A stretch of DNA of 64,000 nucleotides, from contig CANJCO010000007.1 of the NCBI GenBank assembly GCA_947473045.1, positions 56,319-120,318 on the forward strand, read 5' to 3'. Source of the stretch: Myxococcales bacterium (GTDB lineage Bacteria; Myxococcota_A; Polyangia; Polyangiales; Polyangiaceae). This document shows positions 2,186 to 64,000 of the stretch, piece after piece (the stretch's first letter is position 1; each line of letters begins with the position of its first letter). Both the position numbers and the translations under genes were made by a program. Below the pieces are notes generated by a model. The model saw only the letters and a program-made list of their open reading frames with translations. It was not told the origin of the DNA and made no database searches.

Positions 2186-4255
2186 ATGCTGCCGCCCGTG
2201 AAGAGCCGATATCAGACCGCCGAGGCGCAGGCGGCGCTTGAACTTCATGGCCCCGACGTGACCCTGGCGCAGCGCACGTACACGGCGCGGCTGCTGGGCG
2301 CCGATCCGGCGCTGGTGCTTCACGGGGGCGGCAACACGAGCGCGAAGGCGACGCGGACGGACCGGTTCGGGCGTCCGTTCGATGCATTGTACATCAAAGG
2401 CTCCGGGTGGGATCTGGCGACGATTCTGCCGCCCGGGCATCCTGCCGTGCGCCTCGCTCCGCTGCTCGAGCTGCGCGCGCTGCCGTCGATGAGCGACGAG
2501 GACATGGTCGCCGAGCTGCGGCGTAACCTGGTCGACCCGTCTGCCCCGACGCCGAGCGTCGAGACGCTGCTCCACGCATTTTTGCCGATGCGGTTCATCG
2601 ATCACACGCACGCCGACGCCGTGCTCGCGCTCGTCGACCAGCCGGATGGCGAAGCGATCGGCAGGAGCGTCTACGGCGACGCGATGGTGTGGGTACCCTA
2701 CGTGATGCCGGGCTTTCAGCTGGCGCTGCGCACGGCCGAGGCGTACGAGGCGGCAGTCGGGCAGGGGCGCACGCCGAGCGTCATTGTCCTCGAGCGGCAC
2801 GGCGTGTTCACCTTCGGCGAGTCGGCGCGCGAGAGCTACGAGCGCATGATCGACGCCGTCTCGAGCGCTGAGCGGGCGATCGCGCAGCGGCGTCGGAGCG
2901 TGAGCGCGGCGGCGGCGCGCTTCGATGCAAGGGCGGCCGCGATCGTGGTGCCTGCGCTTCGGGGAGCGCTCGCGCGCGCAGCCGCGATGCCGGCCGAGCG
3001 CGGACCGGTGGTGCTGCTCGATCACGACGACGCGACGCTGTCGTTTCTCGCGCGCACCGACGCCGCGACGCTGGTCGCGACTGGCTGCGCGACCCCCGAT
3101 CACGTGATTCGCACAGGCCCCGAGGCGCTCTTGCTGCGCGACCTCGAGCTGCGCGACGCCGGCGCGCTCGCTCTTCGCTTCGACGCGGCCGTGTCGGCGC
3201 ACGCCCGCGCCTACGACGCCTATTTCGCCGCCATGTGCGCGGCGAAGGGCGTGACGAAGGACAAGCTCGCGTCGTGGCCGCGGGCGGTGCTCGTCGAAGG
3301 CGTCGGCCTTTGCGCGATCGGTGCGACGATAGAAGAGGCGCGCGTCGTATCCGATATCTACCGGCACACCATGACGGTGATGACCGACGCCGCCGATATT
3401 GGCACTTACGAGCCTGCCACGCGGTCCGATTTGTTCGATATGGAATATTGGAGTCTGGAGCAGGCGAAGCTGAAAAAGAGCGCGCCGTCCCGGCTGGCAG
3501 GCGCGATCGCGCTCGTGACCGGCGCGGGCAGCGGGATCGGGGCGGCGACGGGCGCGGCGCTCGTGTCGCTCGGCGCGCACGTGGTGCTGACCGACCGCGA
3601 CCTGGGCGCTGTGCGGGAGCTCGCGGATCGGCTTGGGGCGCGCGCATCGGCCACTGTTTGCGATGTGACCGACGCGGGCTCGGTGCAGGCGGCGATCGAC
3701 CACGCGTGCGTCACGTTCGGGGGCCTCGACGTGGTCGTCTCGAACGCAGGTACTGCGCCCGAGGGCCTGCTGGGCACGCAGGCGGGGGCTGATGCTCTGG
3801 CGCGAAGCCTCGAAATCAATTTGCTGTCGCACAACTACGTCGCGCGCGCCGCAACTGCCGTGTTCGAGGCGCAGCGCACCGGAGGTTGTCTGCTGTTCAA
3901 CGCCAGCAAAAGTGCCTTCAATCCGGGGCCGAAGTTTGGCCCTTATGCCGTCGCGAAGAGCGCGCTGATCGCGCTCATGCGTCAGTACGCGGTGGACTAC
4001 GGCGGGCTCGGCGTTCGCGCCAACGCCGTCAACGCCGATCGCGTCCGCACGGGTTTGTTTTCAGGCGGCGTTGCCGAGAGCCGCGCACGCGCCCGCGGCC
4101 TGTCGATCGACGACTACTTTTCGAGCAACCTGCTGGGTCGCGAGGTGCTCGCGAGCGACGTCGCGCAGGCCTTCGCTTACTTCGCCGAGGCCCGCGCCAC
4201 CACCGGATGCGTGCTTACCGTCGACGGCGGCAACGCGGCTGCCTTTCCGAGATAG
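2186..4255 (+). CDS. bifunctional aldolase/short-chain dehydrogenase
   Basis: N-terminal class II aldolase motifs (VLHGGGNTSAKA; IDHTHADAVLAL) fused to SDR domain (ALVTGAGSGIGAATGAALV ... NAGTAPEG ... YAVAKSALIALMRQYAVDYG). Confidence 0.88.
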   Translation: MLPPVKSRYQTAEAQAALELHGPDVTLAQRTYTARLLGADPALVLHGGGNTSAKATRTDRFGRPFDALYIKGSGWDLATILPPGHPAVRLAPLLELRALPSMSDEDMVAELRRNLVDPSAPTPSVETLLHAFLPMRFIDHTHADAVLALVDQPDGEAIGRSVYGDAMVWVPYVMPGFQLALRTAEAYEAAVGQGRTPSVIVLERHGVFTFGESARESYERMIDAVSSAERAIAQRRRSVSAAAARFDARAAAIVVPALRGALARAAAMPAERGPVVLLDHDDATLSFLARTDAATLVATGCATPDHVIRTGPEALLLRDLELRDAGALALRFDAAVSAHARAYDAYFAAMCAAKGVTKDKLASWPRAVLVEGVGLCAIGATIEEARVVSDIYRHTMTVMTDAADIGTYEPATRSDLFDMEYWSLEQAKLKKSAPSRLAGAIALVTGAGSGIGAATGAALVSLGAHVVLTDRDLGAVRELADRLGARASATVCDVTDAGSVQAAIDHACVTFGGLDVVVSNAGTAPEGLLGTQAGADALARSLEINLLSHNYVARAATAVFEAQRTGGCLLFNASKSAFNPGPKFGPYAVAKSALIALMRQYAVDYGGLGVRANAVNADRVRTGLFSGGVAESRARARGLSIDDYFSSNLLGREVLASDVAQAFAYFAEARATTGCVLTVDGGNAAAFPR

Positions 4256-18589: not shown

Positions 18590-19426
18590 TCAGTCCGCGT
18601 CGGGGCGCGCGGCCTCCGCCTGGTCGCCTCCCTGAATCGCGCGCAGCTCCGGAGAGCGCGAAAGCTCGCTCCAAAGCCCCCACGCGCGAACGCGCCTGTC
18701 GAGGTAGATCACCCGCTCTGCGCACCGCGCGATCGCTTGCAGGTTGTGGGTCACCAAAATGGCGGCGATGCTCTCCGAAGCGCTCAGCTCCGCCATCAAA
18801 TCAATGATCGCAGCGCGCCCGCCGACGTCGACGCCCGCGGTGGGCTCGTCGAGGATCAGCACCTCCGGCCTGGTGACCAGCGCGCGCGCCAGAAACACCC
18901 GCTGCGTCTCGCCGCCCGACAGATCGCGCATTTGAGCCTGATGCAGCTTCGCCGCGCCGGTGCGGGTGAGGGCGGCCATGGCCAGCGTGCGCTCGTCGTC
19001 ACGGATGCGCATCGGCCACGTCCCGCGCAGGTTTGCCACGACGACTTCGAGCGGGGTTGCAGGAAAGTCCCGATCGAAGGCCTTGCGCTGCGGCACGTAG
19101 CCGATGCGCCTGCGCCCGCGCTCGGGGTCTTCGCCGCGAATGAGCACCGCTCCCGAGCTGGGCTTGAGCAGCCCCAGCATCACCTTGAGCAGCGTCGACT
19201 TGCCCGCGCCGTTCGGACCACAAAGGCAGAGAAATTCGCCTACGGGAACATGAAACGAGATGTCTTCGAGTACGGCTTTCGTGCCGAAGCGAACGGTGAC
19301 CTCGCGCACTTCGAGCACCCTCGGAGCGTCGGCGGGCGGGGGCGTCCCCGGCGTGACGCCGCCGTACTGTCGCGAAGAGGCGGAGATTGAGACGGGCGGG
19401 GCATCTCGCATAGGCAAGGCGCTCAC
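18590..19426 (-). CDS. znuC: metal (Zn/Mn-type) ABC transporter ATP-binding protein
   Basis: Walker A GPNGAGKST, signature LSGGETQRV, Walker B LILDEPTAGVD; ZnuC/MntB-like QRKAFDRDFPATPLEVV. Confidence 0.88.
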   Translation of the reverse strand: MSALPMRDAPPVSISASSRQYGGVTPGTPPPADAPRVLEVREVTVRFGTKAVLEDISFHVPVGEFLCLCGPNGAGKSTLLKVMLGLLKPSSGAVLIRGEDPERGRRRIGYVPQRKAFDRDFPATPLEVVVANLRGTWPMRIRDDERTLAMAALTRTGAAKLHQAQMRDLSGGETQRVFLARALVTRPEVLILDEPTAGVDVGGRAAIIDLMAELSASESIAAILVTHNLQAIARCAERVIYLDRRVRAWGLWSELSRSPELRAIQGGDQAEAARPDAD

Positions 19427-19455: not shown

Positions 19456-19629
19456 CTAACAGGCCGTTGAAGAACGGCCTGTTAGCAGGCCGTTGAAGAA
19501 CGGCCTGCTAGCCTTTCATCTCGGGGAGGTATGCACCTCCCCGCCCCGAAAAACGCGGTTTTTCGGGGTCCCCACCCCACGCAATTGGCTTCGCCAATTA
19601 CTATCAGGGTGTTTTTCAACACCCTGATA
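19456..19629 (-). repeat. multi-hairpin interspersed repeat, copy A (inverted relative to B, C and D; duplicated terminal hairpin)
   Basis: core matches copy B except GGCGAAGCC vs GGCGTAGCC; hairpins ctaacaggccgttGAAGaacggcctgttag, ggggaggtATGCacctcccc, ccccgaaaaaCGCGGtttttcgggg, attggcTTCgccaat, tatcagggtgttTTTCaacaccctgata. Confidence 0.95.
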
Positions 19630-19680
19630 ACAGGCCGCGCGGCGGGGGCCGCTGCCCGGGGCGGGCGACCCACACAAACG

Positions 19681-19708
19681 CAAAACGCCCGCCTTGGGGG
19701 GGCGGGCG
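19681..19708 (-). terminator. putative intrinsic terminator of the 19815..20591 gene
   Basis: cgcccgcc/ggcgggcg stem followed by TTTTGCGTTTG on the minus strand. Confidence 0.55.
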
Positions 19709-19814
19709 CGGGTTGCGCGGCGATGGACCTCACGAACGTCCGGCGTCGCGGTCGTCGCGCGCCATCGCCAGGTTGCGTCGCGGCAGGGAGCGCAGTCGGC
19801 AGACGCGAGCTCCC

Positions 19815-20591
19815 TTACGAGGCGATCGCCGTCTCGTGCAACGCTCCGGTCGGAGCCGGCAGCGCGGGTGCGGCAGGCGAAGCGGGCGATGCGGAGGCGC
19901 CCGCGGGCGTCTTGGCGGCGCGGGCCCTTCGCTTGCCGATCCCCATGCGAATCAGCAGGTCGCGTCGCTTGATGACGACGCGGGCGCACTCGCTCCAGTC
20001 GAGCACCCATGCCCGGAGCGCCAGCACCGGGGCCGCGCGGTCGGGCGTCGGAGCGGCGGGGGCAGCGACGCTGTGGCTCTCGACGAACGCTGCGCGCTGC
20101 AGCATCTCGGCCCGCTCCGAGGCGGTGATGCCGCGCTCATCGAGGGTGGCGAGCGCGGCGTGGTCGGCCTTGCGCGAGGCCTTGCGATCCTGCGCATTTT
20201 CGAGGTCGGCCAGGCGACCCAGCACCAGTCGCGCGGCGATCACTGCGGTGGCGCCGGAGCCGGGCACGACGCCTTCGAACACGAAGGCCGCCTGGGCGGG
20301 ATGAAGGCGCTGCAGCGCAGCGCGCGCGACCGGAAATGCCACCGCCTGCCAGCGCTCGAGCCGTGCGATCGCTTCGGCGACCGGGATCTGCGCCGTCGCG
20401 GGCGAGTGCGAGGGAGCCATCGCGCCGAGCAGCAGCGCGTATCCCTCCCGCAAGTCGGCGTCTTTGAAGCCGACGGACGCCATGGCCGCGCGAACGGTGC
20501 CGTCGGTGCCCACTGTGCGCAAAAACTGGGAGGCGCGCGTGACAACCGGATCGAGGGCGGTGCGCGAAACAGACGAAAGTGTGAGGTGCAT
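19815..20591 (-). CDS. hypothetical protein
   Basis: start MHLTLSSVSRTALDPVVTRASQFLRTVGTDG; Ala-rich helical 258 aa; own terminator downstream. Confidence 0.65.
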   Translation of the reverse strand: MHLTLSSVSRTALDPVVTRASQFLRTVGTDGTVRAAMASVGFKDADLREGYALLLGAMAPSHSPATAQIPVAEAIARLERWQAVAFPVARAALQRLHPAQAAFVFEGVVPGSGATAVIAARLVLGRLADLENAQDRKASRKADHAALATLDERGITASERAEMLQRAAFVESHSVAAPAAPTPDRAAPVLALRAWVLDWSECARVVIKRRDLLIRMGIGKRRARAAKTPAGASASPASPAAPALPAPTGALHETAIAS

Positions 20592-20686
20592 GATCGATAA
20601 CCCTGGAGTGGCCGGCGCCTTGATTGACGCGCGGCATGCCCACCCATCGATGCCCGCGCAGCAAGGTTGCGAAAAAAGTGACAGAC

Positions 20687-20732
20687 CCTTACGGGATGGT
20701 CCCCCGACCTTGTCGTAAGGTAGGGGGACCAT
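20687..20732 (-). promoter_or_regulatory. strong hairpin with an alternative pairing upstream of the 19815..20591 gene
   Basis: ATGGTCCCCC...GGGGGACCAT plus ACCTT/AAGGT; competing CCTTACG (20687-20693)/CGTAAGG (20714-20720). Confidence 0.5.
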
Positions 20733-21131
20733 GCGCGCTGCGCTTCGGACCATGCGAGCTCGGGCGGCAAACCATGGGCGCATTCGCGGGGCGGCGTCCG
20801 GTTTCGCCGGGGGTGGCGCGATACGGCGCAAAATTGGGCGTCTGTTGAGCGATGCGCTTCTCAAGCGCGCGCAGCGGGGCGCCTGGCGGGCGGACGAAAG
20901 AGGCGGACTGCGCGGCGCTCCGGCGGCCGCTGCCTGAAAAAATGGCCTATTTCCGCGCGTCGTCATGCCTTCGCGGCGAGCCCACATGGTCACGGTCCGG
21001 CGCGGGCGGCGTCTGCGCAGCGCCGCGCGAATCGATCGCGGGCCGCAGCGCTTCGCACAAGCCGCGCGCGATGCGCCGGATCGGCCGCCGCGGAGCCTGG
21101 GGCGCGCGTCGGACCCGCCCGCGCAGCGCCC

Positions 21132-22067
21132 TCACTTCATATATTTTTCGAGCGAGGCCACGTCCGCGCGCAGCAGCTTCTCGTAGCTGTCGACCTCGGG
21201 GCCGCCGCCCACGGGATCGAGGGTGCCGAGCGGAATGTGGGAAGCCTCCGCGATCGTCTTGGCGGGCCTCGGATCGAGCTGCGGCTCGCTGAAGATGGCG
21301 GTGACCTTCTTTTGCGCCACGACCTTCAGCACGGCCTCTAGGTATTCGCCGGTAGGCGTTGAGCCGGGAAACGGCTCGATGACGGCCACGATGTTGAGTT
21401 TGTAGCGCTCGGCGAAATAGCCGAACGAGCCGTGGAAGGTGATGAAGTCGCGCGTCTTCCAAGCGGCGGTGCGCGCCGCGATTTCTGCGTCGAGCTTGTC
21501 GAGGCGGGCGCCGAGCTCGGTGGCGCGCCTTCGGTAGTCGTTCGAATGTGCGGCATCGACCCGGCCGAGCTCGTCGCCGATCGCCTTGACCATGACCCGC
21601 GCCCGCGACGGATCCATCCACACGTGGGGATCGACTGCCCCCTTGTCGTGATCGTGATCGTCCTCGGGCACGGCTTTGTGGGCCGCTTCATCGCCTACGG
21701 CGTCTTCGAGCACGGTGCGCGTCGGGACGCGCTCGCCCACCTTGAGCACCCGCGCGGTCGGAGCTGCGTCTTTCATCAGCCGGTCCATCCACGGATCGAG
21801 GCCGAGGCCGACCATCACGCCGAGCTTCGACGCGGCGACCTCCTCGATTTCTTTCGGGGTTGGATCGAACGTGTGTTCGCTGCGTCCGGGGGGGAGCAGG
21901 AGCGACACATCGGCGTCCGGGCCGGCGACTTCACGCACCAGATCGTAGAGCGGGAAGATCGACACGGCGACTTTCGTGCGCGCGCTCACCTTCGGCTTGC
22001 ATCCGTTGCCGCCGGTCGACGCCGCCGCCGCGAGCGCCATCACAAATAGCAGGCTCAGCTTTTTCAC
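21132..22067 (-). CDS. znuA: metal ABC transporter substrate-binding lipoprotein (ZnuA/cluster A-1 family)
   Basis: lipoprotein signal; SIFPLYDLVREVAGPDADVSLLLPPGRSEHTFDPTPKEI; acidic His loop DDHDHDKGAVDPHVWMDPSRA; FHGSFGYFAERY; FSEPQLDPRPAKTIAEAS. Confidence 0.88.
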   Translation of the reverse strand: MKKLSLLFVMALAAAASTGGNGCKPKVSARTKVAVSIFPLYDLVREVAGPDADVSLLLPPGRSEHTFDPTPKEIEEVAASKLGVMVGLGLDPWMDRLMKDAAPTARVLKVGERVPTRTVLEDAVGDEAAHKAVPEDDHDHDKGAVDPHVWMDPSRARVMVKAIGDELGRVDAAHSNDYRRRATELGARLDKLDAEIAARTAAWKTRDFITFHGSFGYFAERYKLNIVAVIEPFPGSTPTGEYLEAVLKVVAQKKVTAIFSEPQLDPRPAKTIAEASHIPLGTLDPVGGGPEVDSYEKLLRADVASLEKYMK

Positions 22068-22077
22068 CCTGCCGAGG

Positions 22078-22226
22078 CTAGCAGGGTGTTGAAAAACACC
22101 CTGATAGTAATTGGCGTAGCCAATTGCGTGGGGTGGGGACCCCGAAAAACCGCGTTTTTCGGGGCGGGGAGGTGCATACCTCCCCGAGATGAAAGGCTAG
22201 CAGGCCGTTCTTCAACGGCCTGCTAG
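22078..22226 (+). repeat. multi-hairpin interspersed repeat, copy B (complete reference unit)
   Basis: ctagcagggtgttgaaaaacaccctgatag ... ctagcaggccgttcttcaacggcctgctag with three internal hairpins; fills most of the divergent intergenic region. Confidence 0.95.
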
Positions 22227-60574: not shown

Positions 60575-60751
60575 CTACCAGGGTGCTCGAAAAACACCCT
60601 GCTAGCAGGGTGCTCGAAGAACACCATGGTAGGGACTGGCGAAGCCAATTGCGTGAGGTGGGGACCGCGAAAAACCGCGTTTTTCGGGGCGTTGAGCTGA
60701 ATACCTCCCCGAGATGAAAGGCTAGCGGGCCGCTCTTTGACGGCCTGCTAG
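60575..60751 (+). repeat. multi-hairpin interspersed repeat, copy C (diverged; duplicated opposite terminal hairpin)
   Basis: ctaccagggtgctcgaaaaacaccctgctagcagggtgctcgaagaacacc...ctggcgaagccaattgcg...cgaaaaaccgcgtttttcgggg...gagatgaaaggctagcgggccgctctttgacggcctgctag. Confidence 0.9.
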
Positions 60752-63880: not shown

Positions 63881-64000
63881 AGCACCCTGCTAGCAGGGTG
63901 TTGAAAAACACCCTGATAGTAATTGGCGAAGCCAATTGCGTGGGGTGGGGACCCCGAAAAACCGCGTTTTTCGGGGCGGGGAGGTGCATACCTCCCCGAG
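63881..64000 (+). repeat. multi-hairpin interspersed repeat, copy D (runs off window end)
   Basis: ctagcagggtgttgaaaaacaccctgatagtaattggcgaagccaattgcgtggggtggggaccccgaaaaaccgcgtttttcggggcggggaggtgcatacctccccgag: matches the core of A. Confidence 0.95.

Follow-up and report, generated by a model that had tools for sequence, protein, structure and literature searches.

An abundant hairpin repeat in a Polyangiaceae genome, probably a MITE moved by an IS5-family transposase, with a core that appears on several unrelated ends

The repeat described here is probably a MITE of about 148 bp that an IS5-family transposase moves in trans, and its core is most likely a functional passenger. In the proposed mechanism, each end of the unit would be a palindrome built from the IS terminal repeat CAGGNNGTTGAARAAC, and an IS5-family transposase would join the unit ends into YTAR sites, duplicating 4 bp. 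Insertion at the end of a gene would recreate the stop codon and hence be tolerated. Between the ends would lie a core of about 85 nt (hairpin H2, a G-rich linker, and hairpins H3 and H4), a passenger acting where it landed, usually just after a gene. The general view of the initial annotation, that this is a palindromic, non-autonomous repeat mobilised in trans, is supported; the class of mobile repeat that it named is taken up below.

The window, which is the whole 64,000-nt stretch of DNA that was analysed, lies on contig C7 of the source genome (G000; 138 contigs, 5.15 Mb). Its relevant features, taken from the sequence, a repeat search, Pfam, the predicted fold and the alignment of copies, are as follows.

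18590–19426, minus strand: znuC (ABC_tran; Pfam)
19457–19630, minus strand: copy A with its flanking 4-mers (sequence, repeat search)
19457–19460: outer 4-mer of copy A, CTAA
19461–19482, minus strand: extra terminal (right) hairpin of copy A, CAGGCCGTTGAAGAACGGCCTG (sequence)
19627–19630: other flank of copy A, ATAA (TTAT on the minus strand)
19815–20600, minus strand: hypothetical gene separating znuC from znuA; Pfam gives no match and the start is uncertain
21132–22067, minus strand: znuA (PF01297; Pfam)
22078–22226, plus strand: copy B with its target duplication, CTAG at 22078–22081 and at 22223–22226 (sequence, repeat search)
22082–22103, plus strand: H1, left terminal hairpin, CAGGGTGTTGAAAAACACCCTG (sequence, fold)
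22109–22125, plus strand: H2, core hairpin, AATTGGCGTAGCCAATT (AATTGGCGAAGCCAATT in the majority of copies) (fold, alignment)
22126–22138, plus strand: linker GCGTGGGGTGGGG, conserved and unpaired (alignment)
22140–22164, plus strand: H3, core hairpin, CCCCGAAAAACCGCGTTTTTCGGGG (fold, alignment)
22166–22185, plus strand: H4, core hairpin, GGGGAGGTGCATACCTCCCC, then GAGATGA (fold, alignment)
22201–22222, plus strand: H5, right terminal hairpin, CAGGCCGTTCTTCAACGGCCTG (sequence, fold)
60579–60601, plus strand: extra hairpin immediately upstream of the third copy
60602–60751, plus strand: third copy, of an older subfamily, about 88% identical (repeat search)
63890–64000, plus strand: fourth copy, cut by the contig end, which is also the window end (repeat search)

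An inverted pair of about 150 nt had been described as bracketing znuA and the hypothetical gene. The repeat search of the window recovers it, with arms of 147 nt (19483–19629 and 22079–22225) that are 99% complementary and have 2449 nt between them, and inspection of the sequence finds the hairpins where they had been placed and CTAG-type tetranucleotides at both unit ends. Copies A and B were also said to have the same core in opposite orientations. Copy A is not just B inverted, since to the regular unit it adds the one extra terminal hairpin at 19461–19482, which has TTAG (19483–19486) in common with the regular right hairpin. In copy B, H1 is the IS5-type terminal inverted repeat CAGGGTGTTGAAAAACACCCTG and is self-complementary, ATAG lies between H1 and H2, and the sequence 3' of H4 reads GAGATGAAAGG, then CTAG (22197–22200), then H5. 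Folded as single-stranded DNA, copy B reaches −61.1 kcal/mol, as compared to −28.3 ± 3.1 for shuffled sequences (z = −10.6). The unit, with its length of about 148 bp and no transposase gene, fits the 50–500 bp size of MITEs. The right CTAG of the third copy (60748–60751) includes the stop codon of a minus-strand gene.

In five relatives (G001, from the same genus, and G011, G015, G043 and G048) znuC is directly beside znuA, and in G001 the two genes abut. In the window they are separated by about 1.7 kb, occupied by the hypothetical gene and copy A, and so a stretch of that size has entered and split the operon. To this extent the suggestion of a cassette insertion or rearrangement holds, but not with the pair of repeats as the boundary of the cassette. 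Only copy A lies within the gap, not copy B. The outer 4-mers of the two copies, CTAA and CTAG, differ, so the copies are separate insertions, each with its own target site, and G001, too, has near its znuA the methyltransferase that lies on the far side of this gene in the window, which indicates that znuA did not move with the repeats. The inverted arrangement of the copies around the block, together with the splitting of genes that are adjacent in five relatives, might bring to mind a composite transposon or cassette that carries znuA and the hypothetical gene and ends in copies A and B. Given the mismatched 4-mers and the neighbour kept in G001, this is scarcely credible, and as stated it is refuted by the conserved neighbourhood; nor does one duplication enclose the pair. 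The absence of the unit between znuA and znuC in relatives is seen only at the level of synteny; a comparison of DNA with G001 yielded no base-exact empty site for G000 copies, as the alignments do not span them. At the same locus in G001 (C795, L250, about 3250–3405), a different CTAG-bounded hairpin repeat lies exactly at the znuC stop, where G000 has none. The window also contains a strong inverted repeat, GGTCCCCC...GGGGGACC, at 20690–20735, upstream of the hypothetical gene.

The initial annotation had considered that the unit might occur in only four places. Counted over the whole G000 genome with the core pattern GGGGAGGTGCATACCTCCCCGAGATGAAA and up to 3 mismatches, the unit has at least 152 copies, 81 of them forward and 71 of them reverse; the reversed-pattern control gives none. 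I read 117 copies with their flanks, of which 103 were long enough for comparison: 49 of these are identical to the consensus and 66 are within one mismatch of it. A second, older subfamily has many differing positions in an ungapped comparison, partly owing to small length differences. The true copy number may be higher or lower than the count, since 82 of the 117 copies are at contig edges, on 68 contigs. At least 68 of the 138 contigs break off at a copy, where the neighbours are uncertain, and this explains the poor assembly of the genome.

Some arrangements of copies deserve mention. Tandem copies with one common YTAR are found at C11:46068–46215 and on C53, C58, C62, C25, C75 and C60 of G000; they look as if a second unit had entered the duplication of the first, and several copies have extra terminal hairpins. 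Only 2 of 198 terminal hairpins look truly solitary (in copy-bearing stretches, small contigs and comparison regions, a sample biased to copies), and the solitary hairpin is rejected as a real mobile unit on that account. Solitary palindromes of 22–28 bp with the IS5-type end and no core occur in G007 and G011 (L067, L068, L075, L079 and L088). Another genus has one copy with 98% identity to the unit of G000, at the start of a short contig (G006 C52, CANJMI010000052.1, positions 1–118; L062), which reflects either a recent transfer or a misbinned contig.

The 4-mers flanking the units of G000 on the left and right are nearly all YTAR, the target motif of IS5 (PMC10359306), or one change away from it. 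The left and right 4-mers are identical in 21 of 45 copies, compared to 9.2 expected, a number reached in 1 of 20,000 permutations (p = 5e-5), and differ in the remaining 24. The identical ones are CTAG (8), TTAG (6), CTAA (4), CTGG (2) and CCAG (1), and the presence of both TTAG and CTAA means that both orientations are found in G000.

The initial annotation noted that no transposase is present. This is so beside the pair, but elsewhere in the genome, on C83, there is an IS5-family element with matching ends (CTAA-CAGGACGTTGAGAAAC ... GAATTTCAACACCCTG-CTAA). Its transposase, of 366 aa, scores 273 bits against NF033581 (NCBIfam transpos_IS5_4; cut-off 140) and matches PF05598 and PF01609. Unit ends of the CAGGNNGTTGAARAAC type match the ends of IS5-family elements in G000 and in two relatives, and the terminal repeats CAGGNNGTTGA are common to the unit, the C83 element and its homologues there. 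The homologue in G043 reads CTAG-CAGGCTGCTGAAAAAC ... GTTCTTCAGCAGCCTG-CTAG (ends also given as CAGGCTGCTGAAAAAC and CAGGCTGCTGAAGAAC), and that in G019 reads CAGGCTGTTGAAGAA ... TTTTTCAACAGCCTG (ends CAGGCTGTTGAAGAA and CAGGCTGTTGAAAAACC, with CTAG and TTAG). Among the MITE ends of this type are CAGGGTGTTGAAAAAC and CAGGCCGTTGAAGAAC in G000, CAGGCTGATGAAAAC in G001 and CAGGCTGCTGAAAAAC in G005 and G077, these last two starting with the IS end of G043. The fit between the MITE and C83 ends within G000 is imperfect, about 13–14 of 16 positions, and a single IS5 copy was found as against at least 152 MITEs. From the likeness of these ends I infer that a C83-type IS5 transposase may mobilise the G000 unit in trans. 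No transposase of the C83 type was found in G001, G005 or G022, so other enzymes or lost partners have to be assumed there. An IS701-family element (NF033540, 385 bits), at positions 1–1540 of L090 (G000 C54), sits in a CTAG flanking a MITE, with CTAG on both sides. It was considered as the driver and rejected: its ends, CACTACTTTGACA, are unlike the unit ends, and it has merely inserted beside a copy.

The core, about 85 nt consisting of a small hairpin, the linker GCGTGGGGTGGGG and two further hairpins, varies less from genus to genus than the ends do. With a covariance model restricted to the core (92 positions, 21 pairs), matches were obtained in 28 of the 108 genomes, and 16 of the 48 genera, of the family to which the source genome belongs. 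Among 379 genomes sampled across the phylum, 10 have the core, all of them from that family, and none outside it. Public records give the core-bearing genomes as Polyangiaceae, Labilithrix, Myxococcales or Minicystis rosea; a copy (L274) is present in Minicystis rosea DSM 24000, a carrier available in culture. In 80 distinct matches (before duplicates were removed there were 94 rows, 17 of them weak matches that were mostly reverse-strand readings of palindromes), 95.7% of the cells pair, and 19 of the 21 pairs have changed on both sides. There are 188 cells changed on both sides; shuffles give 58, and slid controls no more than 39. The linker, unpaired in the model, has columns conserved at 90% or more in 67 distinct cores, save one at 76%. 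In H3 and H4, G.U cells (11) are as rare as A.C cells (9), and given this lack of strand bias the compensatory changes do not argue for an RNA form. The unit was said to match no described family, and for Rfam this is borne out: Rfam 15 gives no match above the gathering score and nothing credible at permissive thresholds. Viral carriage was rejected, as a degenerate core pattern has no matches in the viruses of IMG/VR. Matches outside Myxococcota in the pattern scan (Burkholderiales, Roseobacter) were rejected as single H4-like palindromes rather than the core.

The core is found on no fewer than four sets of ends that are unrelated to one another, and many copies adjoin a stop codon directly. 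CAGG-type ends are found in G000, G001, G005 and G077. In G022 and G068 the ends are TGA-AGRGCTGTCRA ... TCGACAGCTCT-TGA, with similar ends in G116; in G023, G102 and G103 they are CTAG-AGCGACAAACGG ... CCGATCGGCGTT-CTAG; and in G085 and G090, CTAA-ATCAGCGAGCG ... CATGCTCGGTCAT-TTAG. The short forms of these three types are AGRGCTGTCRA (G022), CTAG-AACGCCGATCGG (G023) and CTAA-ATGGGCCGAGC (G090). Some cores in G002, G035 and G086 have no recognisable ends. The genus label g5 is mixed, including G005 with CAGG ends and G085 and G090 with another type. In most copies from G090 and G085 (L194–L207), the inner and outer tetranucleotides of the right terminal hairpin vary in step (CTAA/TTAG, CTAG/CTAG, CTGA/TCAG, CCAA/TTGG), and the palindrome stays perfect.

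As for position relative to genes, in about 19 of the 23 scorable copies of G022 the upstream gene ends, in frame, at the TGA of the left edge, and the orientation is the same every time; the copies of G068, G085 and G116 behave likewise at stop codons. One clean case of an empty site was found: at a locus where G022 carries the element following TGA, the junction in the relative G064 runs on without a break, ...CCAGATTGAGTCACTTG. In G000, a simple codon model puts an in-frame stop codon at 19 of 64 left edges and at 18 of 77 right edges, in comparison with 3 of 40 YTAR sites at stop codons in the window. CTAG, TTAG and CTAA contain TAG or TAA, so that a stop codon is recreated and insertions at gene ends are tolerated. 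Selection against insertions in coding regions is enough to explain the bias towards gene ends; it does not by itself explain the fixed orientation in G022.

The initial annotation raised the known class of REP/BIME repeats; on that view the mobilising enzyme would be a RAYT (Y1 HUH) transposase with hairpins of single-stranded DNA as its substrate. REPs are palindromes of 20–40 bp tagged with GTAG or CGTC at one end (PMC3733652), and like the unit they are found at gene ends, with mobilisation in trans proposed (PMC3733652). The string of hairpins, the intergenic location and the high copy number agree with this, as does the G022 element, which keeps to one side of TGA and to a single orientation, like IS200/IS605-like elements, and whose genome has one weak Y1 match. 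Against it, the units of G000 are 148 bp long, have YTAR on both sides in place of a GTAG or CGTC tag, and have target duplications. No match to the Y1 transposase (PF01797), a search that had been proposed from the start, was found in G000, and across the family Y1_Tnp occurs in 7 of 28 core-bearing and 31 of 80 core-free genomes (Fisher p = 0.25), hence without association. For G000 the REP/RAYT assignment is not supported; it is disfavoured, and I consider it very unlikely.

If the unit is instead a MITE with IS5-type ends, there remains the question of what the core does. That the inner part was kept across 16 genera while the ends were swapped suggests that it does something, and it is likely that different transposases have each taken up the core as a functional module. 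The role I would favour is that of a 3'-end element, or of one affecting DNA structure or binding protein, which would act at gene ends at the level of DNA or transcript. A more specific proposal, in which the core is a Polyangiaceae-specific module whose linker binds a host factor or forms a hairpin/G-rich switch at gene ends, repeatedly recruited and spread by no fewer than three or four transposition systems unrelated to one another, and kept by selection while its ends are replaced, can be put forward only tentatively. It is quite conceivable, if short of probable, that this is an ordinary old MITE family, its core kept without function by recent descent or spread and by hairpin-templated repair. 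Such repair alone could produce compensatory changes in palindromes, and by keeping palindromes perfect without selection it provides the strongest rival account of the core; the pairing changes without strand bias and the near-identity of young copies agree with it. However, from one genus to another the ends, which transposition requires, are entirely different although the interior is retained, the unpaired linker is as conserved as the stems, which templated repair does not explain, and some copies (G035, G002 and G086) have no recognisable ends. A structured RNA transcribed with the upstream gene (a 3'-UTR element, attenuator or sRNA) would suit G022, G068, G085 and G116, where core and upstream gene share a strand and the stop codon of that gene falls right at the left edge. 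The lack of an excess of G.U over A.C, the two orientations in G000, the absence of any Rfam match and of any T-run 3' of the hairpins in the sequences inspected make this rather unlikely.

A MITE depends on its ends to move, and its interior can usually decay without constraint. The unit, with its inside kept across 16 genera and its ends replaced, makes it possible to ask whether the cargo of bacterial MITEs is under selection. It also offers a test of the effect that a repeated structured element at stop codons has on mRNA ends or on chromosome structure.

There are precedents both for a MITE whose partner IS resides in the same genome (RUP/IS630) and for the conservation of intergenic repeats inside one bacterial group (CIR). 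The literature provided no description of this unit or of one core on MITEs with unrelated ends, which is weak evidence, as subscription papers were poorly covered. MITEs of the Correia/NEMIS, ERIC and QMITE type resemble the unit in their size (50–500 bp), terminal inverted repeats, target duplication and stable stem-loops, and differ in that one core on unrelated ends is not described for them in the text consulted (PMC10969869). The CIR repeats of Caulobacter and its relatives are intergenic, about 110 bp long, with a paired structure conserved between species of one group (PMC2229807); they carry GANTC and have no clear MITE ends, whereas the G000 unit has clear terminal repeats and target duplications. 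RUP of Streptococcus pneumoniae, an intergenic repeat of about 107 bp in about 108 copies, is a MITE mobilised by IS630-Spn1, and like the unit it has ends in common with a resident IS and near-identical copies (PMC2229807). RUP goes with IS630 and TA; the unit, in contrast, has IS5-type ends and YTAR, and a core kept across genera on several types of ends.
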